DNA from: an uncultured Bacteroidota bacterium
GTDB lineage: Bacteria; Bacteroidota; Bacteroidia; Flavobacteriales; Flavobacteriaceae
Length of the DNA: 64,000 nucleotides
Assembly: GCA_902613595.1 (NCBI GenBank)
Contig: CACMHY010000001.1
Coordinates: forward strand, 124,001 to 188,000
Direction: 5' to 3'
Below are positions 31,956 through 39,377 of the stretch, one piece after another. Every line of letters begins with the position of its first letter. Position 1 is the first letter of the stretch. Made by a program: the position numbers and the translations under genes. A model generated the notes under the pieces. It was not told the origin of the DNA, ran no database searches, and saw only the letters and a list, made by a program, of their open reading frames with translations.

Positions 31956-33584
31956 ATGGAACTTGAAAAAGAAAAAAACAAGGACTCAATGAAAATGGCT
32001 TGGGCTAACATTGAGTCTAAATTTAGAAAAATTAAGTTAGGAGGTGGCAAAAGCCGCCTTGAAAAAATTAAAAGCCAGGGTAAATTAACAGCCAGAGAAA
32101 GAGTAAAAAATCTTGTTGACGATACAAGTAAAATTTATGAAATTGGAATTTTGGCAGGTGAAAAGATGTACAATGAATATGGTGGATGTCCGTCAGCGGG
32201 AGTTATAGTTGCAATTGCTAAGGTATCAGGGAGATATTGTGTAATTGTAGCAAATGATCCAAGTGTAAAAGCTGGTGCTTGGTTTCCAATGACAACTAAA
32301 AAAAATTTAAGAGCACAGGAAATAGCTATTGACAACAGAATTCCAATAATTTATTTAGTAGATAGTGCAGGTATTTTCCTTCCCCTTCAAGAAGAACTTT
32401 TCGCTGATAAAGAAAACTTCGGTAGGATATTTAGAAATAATGCTAAAATGAGCAGTATGGGTATTGTCCAAATTGCAGCTGTGATGGGAAGCTGTGTTGC
32501 AGGAGGTGCTTACCTACCAATTATGTCTGATGAGGCAATTATAGTTGAAAAAACTGGAAGTATTTTTTTGGCAGGGAGCTATCTTGTTAAAGCAGCTATT
32601 GGGGAAAATATTGATAATGAATATTTAGGAGGAGCTGACACTCACAGTGGTATTAGTGGGGTTACCGATTATAAATTAAAAGATGATAAAGCAGCTTTGG
32701 ATAAAATAAGAAGTATTATCGATAAAATTGGTTCTTACCCCAAGGCTGGCTTTAAGCGCTCTGAAACTAAAATTCCTGAAATTGAAAAAGACAAAATTTA
32801 TTCAATTTTACCAAAGAAAAACACACAACCTTATAACTCATATGAATTGATTGACTCGCTTGTTGATGATAATTCGATTGATGAATATAAAAAAGAATAT
32901 GGTCAAACTATAATCACTTGCTATGCTAAAATTGATGGATGGTCGATTGGAATTGTAGCTAATCAAAGAAATATAGTAAAAAGTAAAAATGGTGAAATGC
33001 AATTTGGTGGAGTAATTTATGGCGATGCAGCTGACAAAGCAACAAGATTTATAGCGAATTGTAATCAAAAAAACATACCACTGGTTTTTCTACAAGACGT
33101 TACTGGATTTATGGTTGGAAGTAAAGCAGAGCATTCTGGAATTATTAAAGATGGTGCCAAGATGGTAAATGCAGTTGCTAATTCAGTTGTTCCAAAGTTT
33201 ACTATAATTATTGGAAACTCTTTTGGAGCTGGAAACTACGCGATGTGTGGAAAAGCTTTTGATCCAAGGCTAATAGTCGCTTGGCCTACAGCAAAAATTG
33301 CTGTAATGGGTGGAAGTCAAGCAGCAGAAGTGTTGCTACAAATTGAGAAATCATCTGCTTTAAAAAATGGGGAGCAACTAGATGAAAAAAAAGAATCTTT
33401 AATGAAAGAAAAAATAAAAAGTAAATATGATGAGAAAACTGATGTAGTATTTGCAGCTTCTCAATTGTGGGTTGATGCTGTAATAGATCCTGCAGAGACT
33501 CGATCATGGATTAGTATGGGGATTGAAATAGCAAATCAATCTCCAATAGATAGGAAATTCAATATGGGAATTTTACAAGTCTAA
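31956..33584 (+). CDS. Acyl-CoA carboxylase beta (carboxyltransferase) subunit
   Basis: GKLTARERVKNLVDDTS; VMGSCVAGGAYLPIMSDE; FGAGNYAMCGKAFDPRLIVAWPTAKIAVMGG. Confidence 0.92.
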   Translation: MELEKEKNKDSMKMAWANIESKFRKIKLGGGKSRLEKIKSQGKLTARERVKNLVDDTSKIYEIGILAGEKMYNEYGGCPSAGVIVAIAKVSGRYCVIVANDPSVKAGAWFPMTTKKNLRAQEIAIDNRIPIIYLVDSAGIFLPLQEELFADKENFGRIFRNNAKMSSMGIVQIAAVMGSCVAGGAYLPIMSDEAIIVEKTGSIFLAGSYLVKAAIGENIDNEYLGGADTHSGISGVTDYKLKDDKAALDKIRSIIDKIGSYPKAGFKRSETKIPEIEKDKIYSILPKKNTQPYNSYELIDSLVDDNSIDEYKKEYGQTIITCYAKIDGWSIGIVANQRNIVKSKNGEMQFGGVIYGDAADKATRFIANCNQKNIPLVFLQDVTGFMVGSKAEHSGIIKDGAKMVNAVANSVVPKFTIIIGNSFGAGNYAMCGKAFDPRLIVAWPTAKIAVMGGSQAAEVLLQIEKSSALKNGEQLDEKKESLMKEKIKSKYDEKTDVVFAASQLWVDAVIDPAETRSWISMGIEIANQSPIDRKFNMGILQV

Positions 33585-34658
33585 TACTTTAAATGGATTT
33601 TGATCCATTGTTTCCTTACGCTTTATCTTACCACCGTATGTTTGTATGAATTTTTTGTGTAGGGTAATGTATTTTGGAATTTCATATTTCTCAAGCTTTT
33701 TAAAACTCTTTATTTGATAACAAAGTTTCTTAATATTGATCTTAGCATTGTCTTCAATAACTATAGTTAATTTTTCCTTTTTTGATTTAAAGGCTATTTT
33801 ATCAATGAAAAAATGAAAGGATATTTTTTCGGATAGCTTACGTTCAACTTGCTCAGGGTGTATATTAAAATCATCCAACTTAATTATGTTATCTATACTT
33901 CCAATCAATCGAAATTTAGTTGGACTATATAATTCTACCTGGTCATTTGTAATAAGTTTTTTAATATCTAATCTAGGTGCATCGACAGTTAGACATTTGC
34001 GATTATCTTGCCCAACATAAATCCCTGGCAAACACTTGAATTCAGATATAGGATCAGTCATCTTACGAACAGCAATATGAGAAAGTGTCTCCATCATTCC
34101 ATATGTTTCATAGGCATTTATTTTAGCTTTTATCAAAGCTTTCTGAAGAGCGTTGGAAAGATAAGCACCTCCTATTATCAACTTTTTTATTCTACCTAAC
34201 TCAGGTATAGAGTGAAATGCCTGAATTGGGGTCATCGCTGCAAAATCATAAAATTTTTCATTTTTGTAGAAGGGTTTTTTAGATGGAGAAATGAGATCAA
34301 TTTCAAGACCTAAAATTAATGCTCTTATTAACATCATTTTACCCGCTATATAATTTGTTGGAAGACAATGAAGAGCTTTATCCCCAACACTTACCTTAAA
34401 AAAATCTCCAGTTGAAATTGCACTACTTACAAGTGACTGTTTTTTAACCAATATCTTATTTTTCTTTGATATTGATGTACTGAGATAAATTGAGTCTGAG
34501 TTATCAAGCCAATCTAAAATAAAGTCTCCCATAAAGGTTTCATAGAGATCTCCCTCCTTTATAAAATTATAGGCTACTTCTTTCAGGGTATTTCTATCAT
34601 AAAAATAACCATTGAGGCGAAAACGATTGTGGATTTTTGAGAATTTAGGTGTTTCCAT
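33573..34658 (-). CDS. menE: AMP-binding enzyme, probable o-succinylbenzoate-CoA ligase
   Basis: CLPTNYIAGKMMLIRALILG; ETYGMMETLSHIA; IDNIIKLDDFNIHPEQVERKL; neighbours a MenA homolog. Confidence 0.8.
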   Translation of the reverse strand: METPKFSKIHNRFRLNGYFYDRNTLKEVAYNFIKEGDLYETFMGDFILDWLDNSDSIYLSTSISKKNKILVKKQSLVSSAISTGDFFKVSVGDKALHCLPTNYIAGKMMLIRALILGLEIDLISPSKKPFYKNEKFYDFAAMTPIQAFHSIPELGRIKKLIIGGAYLSNALQKALIKAKINAYETYGMMETLSHIAVRKMTDPISEFKCLPGIYVGQDNRKCLTVDAPRLDIKKLITNDQVELYSPTKFRLIGSIDNIIKLDDFNIHPEQVERKLSEKISFHFFIDKIAFKSKKEKLTIVIEDNAKINIKKLCYQIKSFKKLEKYEIPKYITLHKKFIQTYGGKIKRKETMDQNPFKVLDL

Positions 34659-34662
34659 TTAT

Positions 34663-35562
34663 CTAACTAATTAATAATTTATTTTTCCAATTTGACAATT
34701 TATATTTTTTTGAAACAATAAATAAAAATACAGGATACACGACTAAAAGAGGGAAAATGACTTCAAATCCGACTGAGGGTTCGGAAATATCCAAAAAGAT
34801 TGATTCAGTCTGAAATGCAGTCCATGAAGAGGTTAATAATAAAGATATCAATAAGTTATTTGATATATGAAAGCCCAAAGCTAACTCTATACCCCTGTCA
34901 ACAATTGTTAAAATTCCTAAAAAAAAGCCGGTACCGATGTAATATATCAAAATACTATAGCCAATTTTTTCAACTTCTGGATTAGATGCATGTAAAAATC
35001 CAAAAATGACTGATGTCATAATTAATGACAACCATGGCTTTTTAAAAAATGAAGTAAAGCCATGTAAAAGATAGCCTCTAAAAATATATTCTTCAAAGCC
35101 TGCTTGAATCGGTATCATAGTAATAGTAATAATAAAAAGAATTATGAAAGGTAATAATTTGAAATTCCATTGATAATCGGTAGGATTAAAAAGGTAATCC
35201 ACAATCAAAAGTAAAACTGTAATAAGACCCCATAAAAAAAAAGCAAAAAACATTCTCTGCCAATCGAAATTCTTCCTTGAGGTCGAAATAGTTTTTAATG
35301 ACTTTTCATGTAATTTGTATACAACCAAAATCAGTCCAGAGAAGCCGACCAATGAAGGAATTAAGAGTAAAAAAAGTTGGAGATTTTTGTCCAGGCTTCT
35401 TAAAGCTAAAATTGGATCACCACCAGCGGATAGTAACTTTTCCCCTGAAATGAAAAATGTCAATGGTAATTGACCAAGTATAGAAAAAAATGTTATAATG
35501 AATGAACCCAAAAGGTACATCCAAAAAGGGTTTTTGGTGGATTCAGCCTCATTTAGAAACAT
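34663..35562 (-). CDS. CPBP family intramembrane metalloprotease
   Basis: Polytopic; AGFEEYIFRGYLLHGF motif, SVIFGFLHA. Confidence 0.9.
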   Translation of the reverse strand: MFLNEAESTKNPFWMYLLGSFIITFFSILGQLPLTFFISGEKLLSAGGDPILALRSLDKNLQLFLLLIPSLVGFSGLILVVYKLHEKSLKTISTSRKNFDWQRMFFAFFLWGLITVLLLIVDYLFNPTDYQWNFKLLPFIILFIITITMIPIQAGFEEYIFRGYLLHGFTSFFKKPWLSLIMTSVIFGFLHASNPEVEKIGYSILIYYIGTGFFLGILTIVDRGIELALGFHISNNLLISLLLTSSWTAFQTESIFLDISEPSVGFEVIFPLLVVYPVFLFIVSKKYKLSNWKNKLLIS

Positions 35563-35573
35563 AGATTATTTTT

Positions 35574-36914
35574 CTAAAGATAAAAAGTTGAAATAATTCC
35601 CAAACAAAAAATAATTTGATAATAAATAGTATGGATATTGTAGTAAACTAATTTTCTAGAATCATAAAATTTATAAAGACCTACAAAAATGTACATACCA
35701 TATATAATCAATAATAAGAAAATTAATAGCATAATATACTGATAATCACTAGTTTGGAAGGAATCTTTAAAAAAATAAATTGTTGTAATATAGATCACAG
35801 AAAGGTTGGCTAAATATATCCATCTAGAATATTTTTTTCCAAAGAAAACAACCAAATTTATTTTATTAGATTTTTTATCTGACTTTAAATCTGGAAACTG
35901 ATTAATTAAAAGGATATTTGTTGTTAGCAAGCCTAGTGGAACACCAATCAAAGAAAAATTTTGCAAAAGTTGAAAAGAAATTTCAATTGAAGTATTTGAC
36001 ATTGCGAAAAAGCTTCCTAATGTTAGAAGTGGTCCAAAGGTTAAAAAAATGGTTAATTCACCGAGTCCCTTTCTAGAAGAAAATTTTAATGGCTCAGCTG
36101 TGTAAAAAAATGCCAAAAATAAACCTAAAAAACCAATTATACCAACACCATATATGTTATCAAATGATCCTGTTTGATAGTATATATTGATTGAGAGAAT
36201 TATAAGACAGGATAAAGCAAATATAATCATTAAATTCCCTAATATTTTTGTTTTCTTTAATGTAATTAGTCCTAATTCTACTGCTCTACTACCTCCCGAA
36301 ATCTGTGCTCCTCTTAGCATTAATGATTTGTCACCAACATTAAAGTATTCACTGTTATTTTCATCAGTTCCCGATTTTACGTCGAAATAGTCATTGTATA
36401 GATTCCCGAAAATATGAGCACAAATTATTCCAATTATAGACAGAATAGCATTTGTTAATGATAATGAATTTGTTTGACTTAAAATCAACGAAACAATTAC
36501 CATAGGCAATATAGATGCCAATGTAAAACCACCCCTTGTGATTGCAATTCCTTTAATAATTTTAGTAGTTAAGCTAATTGGAATATTTACATTCTCCTCA
36601 ATCTCTTTTGTAATCCCACAGTAGCCAGTTTGAGGTTCGTCCTTACCATTAGCAAAATTAGGTGTGATTATAATTTCAGCATTGAAATATGATCCGTCTT
36701 TCCTTACAAAATTTGTTTTAACGATAGATTTTCCATGTTTATTTGCTTCTTCGAGCCAGCCCAAAACATTTTGAATTACGATTTCTCCAGGAGAAAAAAT
36801 TGAAACCCTTTTTATACCAACTAATTCATCCTTTGAGTAACCAAACATTTCAAGAGCTCCATTATTCATCTCCTGTATTACTCCTTCCATATCACAAATA
36901 ATTACACTTTTCAT
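35574..36914 (-). CDS. PAS domain-UbiA prenyltransferase fusion (MenA-like)
   Basis: About 110 aa PAS (MEGVIQEMNNGALEMFGYSKDELVG...FVRKDGSYFNAEI...GYCGITKEIEE) fused to a UbiA domain with NLYNDYFDVKSGTDENN and DLKSDKKSNK motifs. Confidence 0.88.
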   Translation of the reverse strand: MKSVIICDMEGVIQEMNNGALEMFGYSKDELVGIKRVSIFSPGEIVIQNVLGWLEEANKHGKSIVKTNFVRKDGSYFNAEIIITPNFANGKDEPQTGYCGITKEIEENVNIPISLTTKIIKGIAITRGGFTLASILPMVIVSLILSQTNSLSLTNAILSIIGIICAHIFGNLYNDYFDVKSGTDENNSEYFNVGDKSLMLRGAQISGGSRAVELGLITLKKTKILGNLMIIFALSCLIILSINIYYQTGSFDNIYGVGIIGFLGLFLAFFYTAEPLKFSSRKGLGELTIFLTFGPLLTLGSFFAMSNTSIEISFQLLQNFSLIGVPLGLLTTNILLINQFPDLKSDKKSNKINLVVFFGKKYSRWIYLANLSVIYITTIYFFKDSFQTSDYQYIMLLIFLLLIIYGMYIFVGLYKFYDSRKLVYYNIHTIYYQIIFCLGIISTFYL

Positions 36915-36968: not shown

Positions 36969-37379
36969 TTATCGCTTCGTAAAAGTGGTTAGCTTACATA
37001 ATGATATTAATTCATCTTTTTGATCAACGACTTTTATTTCCCAGTATTGTATGGTTTTACCCCTATGAATTGGTCTAGCAGTAGCATAAATAAAACCATC
37101 TGAGATACTCTTTATATGATTAGCAGTAATCTCAATACCACGAACTTTGGTATTAGGATCTTTATTAAAAATATATACTGCTGCACTACCTACACTTTCG
37201 GCCAATGCGGCTGTAGCACCACCATGTAGTATTCCATCTGGTTGATGAACCTTTTTTGAAACAGGCATTCTTGCTTTTAAAAAATCATCTCCAACATCAG
37301 TATAATATATTTCTAATGTTTCCATTAGTGTGTTTTTGGATATACTATTTGCAATTTCCAGAACTTGTTTTTTGTTCAT
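36969..37379 (-). CDS. PaaI-type hotdog thioesterase (possible DHNA-CoA thioesterase)
   Basis: MPVSKKVHQPDGILHGGATAALAESVGSAA; adjacent to the menA-like gene. Confidence 0.8.
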   Translation of the reverse strand: MNKKQVLEIANSISKNTLMETLEIYYTDVGDDFLKARMPVSKKVHQPDGILHGGATAALAESVGSAAVYIFNKDPNTKVRGIEITANHIKSISDGFIYATARPIHRGKTIQYWEIKVVDQKDELISLCKLTTFTKR

Positions 37380-37466: not shown

Positions 37467-39377
37467 CTAATCCTTCACTTCTTCAAAATCAACATCTTGG
37501 ACATCATCACCAGATTTTTCTGTCTTTTGATCCTCTTGAGAATTTGTATTTTTCGCATCAGCTGATCCTTTTTCAGATTGTGCTTTATACATTTCCTCTG
37601 AAGCATTTTTCCAAGCTTCGTTAATTGATACTAAAGCTTTATCAATCGCCTGCAGGTCTTTTGACTCATGTGCTTTTTTTAACTCATCAAGTGCTACTTC
37701 AATTGGCTTTTTCTTTTCTTCAGATAACTTGTTACCAAATTCACTAAGCTGTTTCTCAGTTTGGAAAATCATTTGGTCTGCTGAATTGAGCTTCTCCGCT
37801 TCTTCTTTAACCTTTTTGTCAGCATCAGCATTGGCTTCAGCTTCTTTTTTCATTTTTTCAATCTCCTCTTCTGTTAAACCCGAAGAAGCCTCGATACGAA
37901 TATCTTGAGATTTATTGGTAGCTTTATCTAGAGCACTAACTTTGATTATTCCATTGGCATCAATATCAAAAGTAACCTCAATTTGTGGTGTTCCTCTCTG
38001 TGCTGGAGGTATTCCATCTAAGTGGAATCTTCCTATTGTCTTATTATCACTTGCCATGGATCTTTCTCCTTGTAAAACGTGAATTTCGACTGAAGGTTGA
38101 TTATCAGCCGCAGTAGAAAATATTTGGGATTTTTTTGTTGGAATGGTTGTATTAGATTCTATCAATTTAGTCATTACTCCACCCATAGTTTCAATACCTA
38201 AGGACAAAGGTGTAACATCTAGTAATAAAACGTCTTTTACATCACCTGTTAAAACTCCACCTTGAATGGCTGCACCAATAGCAACAACTTCATCAGGATT
38301 TACGCCTTTGGATGGCTTTTTACCAAAAAACTTTTCTACTTCTTCTTGGATTATAGGAATTCTGGTTGATCCTCCGACTAAAATTATCTCATCTATATCA
38401 CCAGTCGTTAATCCAGCATCATCTAATGCTTTTTTTACAGGATCCATAGATCGTTTTACTAAAGAGTCGGCTAGTTTTTCAAAATTTGCTCTGGTAAGTG
38501 TCGTAACAAGATGTTTCGGCCCTGAGTCTGTAGCCGTAACATACGGAAGGTTTATTTCAGTTTGGGTTGAAGAGGAGAGCTCAATTTTCGATTTTTCAGC
38601 AGCTTCTTTAAGTCTTTGTAAAGCCATGGGATCCTTCCGAAGATCAATCGATTCTTGCTTTTGGAATGTTTCGGCAAGAAAATCAATAATTACTTGATCA
38701 AAATCGTCACCACCAAGGTGAGTATCTCCATTTGTTGATAATACCTCGAATACGCCGTCGCCTAATTCTAAAATTGATATATCAAATGTACCACCTCCCA
38801 AATCATATACTGCAATTTTTTTATCAGAACCACCTTTATCGAGTCCATATGCAAGAGCCGCGGCTGTTGGTTCATTAATTATTCTTTGTACTTTTAAGCC
38901 TGATATTTCTCCTGCCTCTTTAGTTGCCTGTCTTTGCGAGTCACTGAAATAAGCTGGAACTGTTATCACAGCTTCGGTAACCTCGTGTCCTAGGTAATCT
39001 TCAGCGGTTTTTTTCATTTTTTGGAGAGTCATGGCAGAAAGTTCTTGAGGACTATACATTCGACCATCTATGTCTACTCTTGGTGTATCATTATCACCTT
39101 TAACTACCTTATAAGCAACTGATTTGACATCATTTTTTGATTCTGAAAATTTGTTACCCATGAAACGTTTGATAGATGCAATTGTCTTGGTAGGGTTAGT
39201 TACTGCCTGTCTTTTCGCTGGATCACCTACTTTAATTTCACCGCCTTCTACAAAAGCAATTACAGATGGTGTTGTCCTTTTACCTTCAGCATTTGGTATT
39301 ACAACTGGTTCGTTTCCTTCCATCACAGAAACGCAAGAATTTGTCGTACCCAAATCAATTCCTATAATTTTACTCAT
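37467..39377 (-). CDS. dnaK: Molecular chaperone DnaK
   Basis: [40 protein letters not shown]-like C-terminus. Confidence 0.99.

Follow-up and report, generated by a model that had tools for sequence, protein, structure and literature searches.

A PAS-fused, MenA-class prenyltransferase in place of five menaquinone genes in marine Bacteroidota

A single gene coding for a PAS domain joined to a MenA-class UbiA prenyltransferase domain (PAS-UbiA; 35574..36914, minus strand, 446 aa) stands in place of the menF-menD-menB-menA-menC genes of relatives in a stretch of 64,000 nucleotides (the window) from an uncultured bacterium of the Flavobacteriaceae. Because PAS-UbiA sits where relatives keep five menaquinone genes, the bacteria that bear the fusion appear, from their gene content, to lack every known route to the quinone ring. 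Many marine Bacteroidota with small genomes probably acquire the ring from their surroundings or through a route not yet known. The explanation proposed here, held with about even confidence, is that PAS-UbiA is a MenA-class enzyme which prenylates an acquired head group, with UbiE finishing the quinone, the PAS domain perhaps gating the enzyme, and the gene spreading as a recombining cassette.

The Fusion Gene and Its Two Domains

The PAS-UbiA reading frame starts with ATG, holds no internal stop, and extends only 3 codons 5' of the ATG; the start methionine (MKSV...) is aligned in nearly all relatives. The preliminary description of this DNA had proposed one ORF joining a PAS module and a MenA-class UbiA domain, and this is borne out by profile matches above the curated cut-offs, namely Pfam PAS_9 (residues 3-93, 38.4 bits against 27, E 1.6e-9), NCBIfam sensory_box TIGR00229 (39 bits against 22.9), and Pfam UbiA (residues 136-414, 82.2 bits against 34.2, E 4.8e-23). 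The AlphaFold2 model, built with 38 homologues (pLDDT 82.8, pTM 0.80), likewise has a single PAS fold followed by the UbiA helical bundle. Foldseek matched the model to the UbiA homologues 4tq4, 4od5 (ApUbiA), and UBIAD1 (8djk), and to PAS structures including 3lyx, 2gj3 (NifL), LOV, and EcDOS. The PDB hits 7rdr and 8e1e were disregarded, as they appear to be designed-protein entries with chance matches of a repeat-like kind. No stop or frameshift lies between the domains, and fusions of full length, about 445-460 aa, also occur in 18 same-family sequences and in nearly all of the 73 relatives extracted from GTDB genomes, including single-cell genomes such as SCGC AAA795-G10. Hence, a frameshift or an assembly artefact is ruled out as its source. 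One sequence (L115) begins within the PAS domain, at a contig end.

The UbiA domain (35673..36509, minus strand), assigned by Pfam and by the Foldseek matches 4od5 and 8djk, carries both Asp-rich motifs that had been reported for it. The first, DYFDVKSGTD (36363..36392, minus strand, residues 175-184), follows the MenA-type DxxDxxxxxD rule (PMC9235831), and the second is DLKSD (35877..35891, minus strand, residues 342-346). Both patterns are conserved in 73/73 relatives, and D175, D178, D184, D342, and D346 are invariant in 38 sequences. MenA models are the best profile matches of the UbiA part in all 38 members, among whose matches the 4-hydroxybenzoate UbiA model does not occur; the scores of PAS-UbiA fall below the curated MenA cut-offs (TIGR00751, 64.6 against 102.15 bits; NF004751, 79.8 against 264). 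The catalytic core of MenA type is intact. The genome holds no second, stand-alone menA, leaving PAS-UbiA as its only MenA-like gene. The other UbiA above the cut-off was rejected as a menA candidate, as it adjoins cytochrome oxidase genes and by these neighbours looks like the heme O synthase CyoE.

The PAS domain (36600..36908, minus strand, about residues 3-105), delimited by PAS_9, TIGR00229, and the model, has predicted strands at residues 3-8, 12-16, 63-70, 76-87, and 95-105 and a helix at 43-60. TIGR00229 matches it in 38/38 members, and the PAS block TGYCG is present in all 73 extracted relatives (the PAS of L115 being partial). Mean column identity is 79% in the PAS half against 67% in the UbiA half, and dN/dS is 0-0.07 in the PAS against 0.10-0.18 in the UbiA domain. 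As the PAS half is the better conserved and has the lower dN/dS, it is very likely needed for function rather than carried as a passenger.

The closest solved PAS folds include 3lyx (TMt 0.80) and the FAD-binding PAS of NifL, 2gj3 (0.75), although resemblance to 2gj3 is general among PAS domains. Across 23 aligned PAS sequences there is no invariant histidine, and cysteine is absent from the segment after 'ELVG', where LOV proteins carry their photoreactive cysteine. A LOV or heme PAS sensor was therefore rejected, and textbook sensing of light or of oxygen through heme is unlikely, whereas FAD or a small aromatic ligand is possible. UbiA active sites face the cytosol, so that the PAS domain should adjoin the active-site loops. 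It probably binds a precursor or a redox ligand and controls the prenylation step. Gating of the enzyme, as the preliminary description had suggested, is plausible; ligand-dependent gating or precursor capture would be the most likely role, and pure dimerisation is less likely.

Distribution of the Fusion

The fusion is present in 9/201 sampled genomes of the family, in 11 of the 38 genomes of the genus of the window, and in one genome from another family of the same class (G585). At least 175 stretches in GTDB genomes code for relatives of the UbiA part; of the stretches recovered with two peptide patterns, the 80 best were retained, all of which belong to Bacteroidota, with titles that point to marine MAGs and single cells. 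Most of the genomes compared are incomplete MAGs or SAGs. Among plasmids, the search for close homologues of PAS-UbiA returned only one match, of 27% and annotated as MenA.

Contexts vary with the lineage. In G585 (locus L149, 8058-9350), PAS-UbiA does not have the insertion that precedes the SGGSR motif, and it adjoins an acyl-CoA carboxylase gene that resembles the one flanking the men locus in the window. In three loci with Marinoscillum or Flammeovirgaceae titles (L113, L127, and L135), the context differs from that in Flavobacteriia, and the genes before PAS-UbiA are presumably the pantothenate kinase gene coaX and two topoisomerase subunits.

One Gene Where Relatives Keep Five

The canonical locus, in which the men genes were identified with NCBIfam on L039, reads dnaK-menI-menF-menD-menB-menA-menC-CPBP-menE followed by an acyl-CoA carboxylase gene, and occurs in this form in G140 and 19 genus-mates. 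The window instead reads dnaK-menI-[PAS-UbiA]-CPBP-menE, followed by the same carboxylase gene. The upstream anchor, dnaK (37467..39377, minus strand), is conserved and was used for the tree; the downstream anchor is the acyl-CoA carboxylase carboxyltransferase-like gene (31956..33584, plus strand). Between them lie the menI-like hotdog thioesterase gene (36969..37379, minus strand), the CPBP/Rce1-like intramembrane protease homologue (34663..35562, minus strand), which stands between menC and menE in canonical loci and is retained in fusion loci of the dnaK type, and the menE-like acyl-CoA ligase gene (33573..34658, minus strand, 361 aa), which is kept mainly in the genus of the window.

The two neighbours had been named correctly as a menE-like ligase and a hotdog thioesterase, as profile matches confirm. 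However, they had also been taken as a sign of menaquinone synthesis, and this does not hold, for the men core menF-menD-menB-menA-menC is absent at the locus. Outside the genus of the window, most fusion loci lack menE and several also lack menI. Hence, the two genes are best read as leftovers of a men locus in which one gene has taken the place of the central five. In the G066 clade (L031 and L080-L082), both are gone and PAS-UbiA and CPBP are all that remains of the locus; a 320-aa ORF occupies the menE position in L031. Within the genus of the window, menI (dN/dS 0.04-0.11) and menE are intact and under selection, which makes a side function possible. The menE-like ligase has a dN/dS of 0.10-0.15 in fusion genomes of the genus against 0.04-0.09 in canonical ones, and with menC, menD, and menB gone it may serve another acid or be slowly decaying.

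In four loci of non-dnaK context (L100, L101, L126, and L132), a UbiE homologue lies directly upstream of PAS-UbiA, 52-121 bp apart; three of these homologues were scanned, with scores of 228-234 bits against a subfamily cut-off of 158. This adjacency ties PAS-UbiA, independently of the men locus, to the step just before quinone C-methylation.

Quinone Genes Across the Genomes

Nineteen fusion genomes were compared with canonical genomes by profile search. None of the 19 has menD (TIGR00173) above the cut-off; they yield only weak matches of about 25-66 bits in long frames, which are interpreted as acetolactate synthase and enzymes like it, since canonical genomes, too, show them in addition to menD. 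In the genus, 11 genomes are fused without menD, 23 are unfused with menD, 4 incomplete ones have neither, and none has both (Fisher p 1.1e-6). The four with neither (G202, G221, G224, and G230) are probably missing contigs. Likewise, menB (TIGR01929) is found in 0/19 fused against 20/20 canonical genomes. Isochorismate synthase (TIGR00543) gives 209-237 bits in a 350-aa frame in canonical genomes, together with a TrpE-like match near 160 bits, while in the fusion genomes the search for the menF-type enzyme gives TrpE/PabB-like matches only, and in three of them none.

Other sources of the head group were considered. The futalosine pathway was rejected, as mqnA is absent in all 34 genomes scanned, the 19 fusion genomes included, and a homogentisate or plastoquinone-like route was rejected as a general answer, as 4-HPPD occurs in only one of the 19, plus G585. 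Relocation of the men genes elsewhere was rejected as well, since menD, menB, and menF are absent genome-wide. Late genes are retained: ubiE is found in 17 of the 19 fusion genomes, one copy being truncated by a contig end, and nqrA is also found in 17, with the gaps falling in genomes that are 54-68% complete. Incompleteness was rejected as the cause of the men absence. The product of the 19 incompleteness values, for one gene absent in all 19 and with the genomes treated as independent, is ~2e-15, and the 4-contig G236 has the same loss. The pattern met in fusion genomes is hence that of a late-only pathway, in which early genes are absent and the prenyltransferase and UbiE are present. The proposal that PAS-UbiA is the MenA of a menaquinone pathway stands as regards the fusion, the MenA class, and the quinone context, but not as regards an ordinary pathway.

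Exchange of the Cassette

The exchange of one gene for five is best seen in a pair of closely related MAGs, L076 (fusion-bearing, MED818) and L155 (canonical, G218). Flanks of 6.7 kb and 5.3 kb align at 94% identity; the alignment ends at the menI stop codon and restarts 24 nt inside CPBP. Between these points lie 1.44 kb with PAS-UbiA in L076 against 5.98 kb with menFDBAC in L155. Identity in the flanks is mostly 92-98%, but the 3' part of menI dips to 67% and the 5' part of CPBP to 68-79%, with recovery near 11.6 kb. Such a dip is what the import of a tract of ~2.2 kb would be expected to leave, and would indicate homologous recombination in the flanking genes. The candidate import, L076:9300-11550, comprises the divergent 3' part of menI, PAS-UbiA, and the 5' part of CPBP. 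As both genomes are MAGs, a chimeric contig could be invoked, but it would need two joins inside the expected genes. On the dnaK tree, six changes of state are needed, of which at least two are forced by well-supported branches.

In G218, the canonical genome closest to the fusion-bearing L076, menB is only a 178-aa ORF (L155:7263-8394), possibly frameshifted or broken.

Discussion

In the proposed mechanism, PAS-UbiA would be an active MenA-class polyprenyltransferase standing in for the products of menF-menD-menB-menA-menC. The cell would import an aromatic head group that other organisms release and that carries no methyl group, either 1,4-dihydroxy-2-naphthoate (DHNA) or a related compound, and PAS-UbiA would join the polyprenyl tail to it at the cytosolic face of the membrane, after which UbiE would methylate the prenylated product to give a working quinone. 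The N-terminal PAS domain, on the cytosolic side of the active site, may bind the precursor or a redox ligand and gate or feed the enzyme, which is the weaker part of the proposal. Homologous recombination in the flanking DNA would carry the cassette from one lineage to another, as a one-step switch between making and acquiring the head group.

The identity of that head group bears on the proposal. DHNA decays quickly in medium, and none was detected in the spent supernatant of Shewanella cultures (PMC6687433); both points speak against free DHNA in oxic seawater. Moreover, simple auxotrophy for DHNA would allow the original MenA to be retained, so that the swap of the enzyme hints at another substrate. 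The instability of DHNA and the lack of need for a new prenyltransferase together make another scavenged ring, or an unknown ring-making route, a serious alternative. A tentative reading that accommodates both, possible but short of an even case, is that PAS-UbiA, a recombining one-gene-for-five cassette distributed among ocean Bacteroidota, marks a third way to the respiratory quinone ring. This would be a new biosynthetic route or else capture and prenylation under ligand control; in the latter variant, equally tentative as part of the same joint reading, the PAS domain would bind a scavenged aromatic and hand it to the membrane enzyme.

An undiscovered de novo route, in which genes elsewhere build the ring, a naphthoate or a benzoate, independently of the MenFDBC and Mqn enzymes, and PAS-UbiA and UbiE finish it, is rather unlikely when taken by itself. 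It would account for the retention of UbiE, in some lineages adjoining PAS-UbiA, and for the replacement rather than retention of the canonical MenA, which suggests a different ring. The trait also occurs in several lineages and persists in small genomes of 1.2-2.1 Mb, and the 99% complete G585 has PAS-UbiA with no menB above the cut-off and no isochorismate synthase match. However, the difference between L076 and L155 is a single gene, so that any extra pathway genes must have pre-existed in the recipient. The rarity of 4-HPPD speaks against such a route via homogentisate, and the UbiE neighbours score 174-183 bits against a cut-off of 335 for the methyl-plastoquinone enzyme MpqE; the literature search found no paper on the term methyl-plastoquinone. 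A remodelling enzyme like UBIAD1, which would remove or replace the side chain of imported prenylquinones (phylloquinone of phytoplankton or foreign menaquinones), has a smaller probability and is considered unlikely. Human UBIAD1 (8djk) is the best match of the UbiA sequence among solved structures and also among the top fold matches, although its fold match is no better than those of archaeal UbiA proteins, and the surface-ocean hosts presumably have phylloquinone-rich phytoplankton in their surroundings. Phylloquinone or menaquinone taken up from outside carries its C-methyl group already, and a cell using it should be able to do without UbiE. Even the 1.2 Mb genome G189 nevertheless retains ubiE, and in the four loci described above ubiE adjoins PAS-UbiA. 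Retention of UbiE thus argues against tail exchange on methylated quinones.

The model of the preliminary description, a conventional MenA that serves a full menaquinone pathway and is under allosteric control by the PAS domain, draws on the two domains being real and under purifying selection, and on menE and menI adjoining the gene. Its pathway part is contradicted by the absence of menF, menD, and menB from the genome of the window and from every fusion genome tested, and menE and menI are themselves gone from many fusion loci; the model as a whole is very improbable. Scarcely any weight is given to PAS-UbiA being no quinone enzyme but one that prenylates another aromatic, with complete quinones coming from outside. 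A precedent exists in Ubi-297, a UbiA protein of marine flavobacteria that can act on 8-hydroxyquinoline-2-carboxylate (PMC9235831), but PAS-UbiA occupies the menA slot, never occurs with menD in the genus, has ubiE as its neighbour in four loci, and finds its best matches in MenA models.

Among known systems, PAS-UbiA is most like MenA (TIGR00751 and NF004751 of the UbiA superfamily), with which it shares the UbiA fold, the DxxDxxxxxD and DxxxD motifs, the best profile matches, and the menA slot. It differs in its N-terminal PAS, in an identity of about 25-35% to canonical flavobacterial MenA, in scores below the curated cut-offs, and in a host genome without the genes that make DHNA. The gene content recalls DHNA auxotrophs. 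For example, five men genes are missing from Porphyromonas pasteri, which retains the two final ones and requires DHNA (PMC9704088), and gut genomes that lack the early steps have MenA and MenG (PMC4746308). As far as they have been described, these auxotrophs retain a normal MenA, whereas the marine plankton swap the entire menF-D-B-A-C block for a different, sensor-fused prenyltransferase. UBIAD1, the human MK-4 synthase, shares the UbiA-family fold and is the best PDB sequence match for the UbiA domain, but it has no PAS and acts on methylated naphthoquinones, whereas fusion genomes keep UbiE. The PAS domains of NifL (FAD), LOV proteins, EcDOS and FixL (heme), and CPS_1291 (3lyx) share the fold, with best target-normalised TM-scores of about 0.7-0.8; that of PAS-UbiA lacks the LOV cysteine and the conserved histidine, and sits on a membrane enzyme rather than on a kinase or cyclase. 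Ubi-297, although UbiA-like and from marine Flavobacteria, was rejected as a relative, having 299 aa, a UbiA-like DxxDxxxD motif, another substrate, and no PAS mentioned (PMC9235831).

The literature searched held nothing on point about a PAS-UbiA or PAS-MenA fusion or about quinone auxotrophy in marine flavobacteria. To our knowledge, within that literature, PAS-UbiA would be the first case of a sensor domain joined covalently to a quinone prenyltransferase.

Respiratory quinones are essential to cells that run a respiratory chain based on Na+-NQR. The allelic swap offers a natural comparison of near-identical genomes with and without ring synthesis. If the ring-making half of the pathway has indeed been abandoned and the precursor is scavenged, the plankton would harbour a hidden dependency resembling that on vitamin K, and the need for a scavenged precursor would be a concrete hint for the cultivation of uncultured surface-ocean Bacteroidota.
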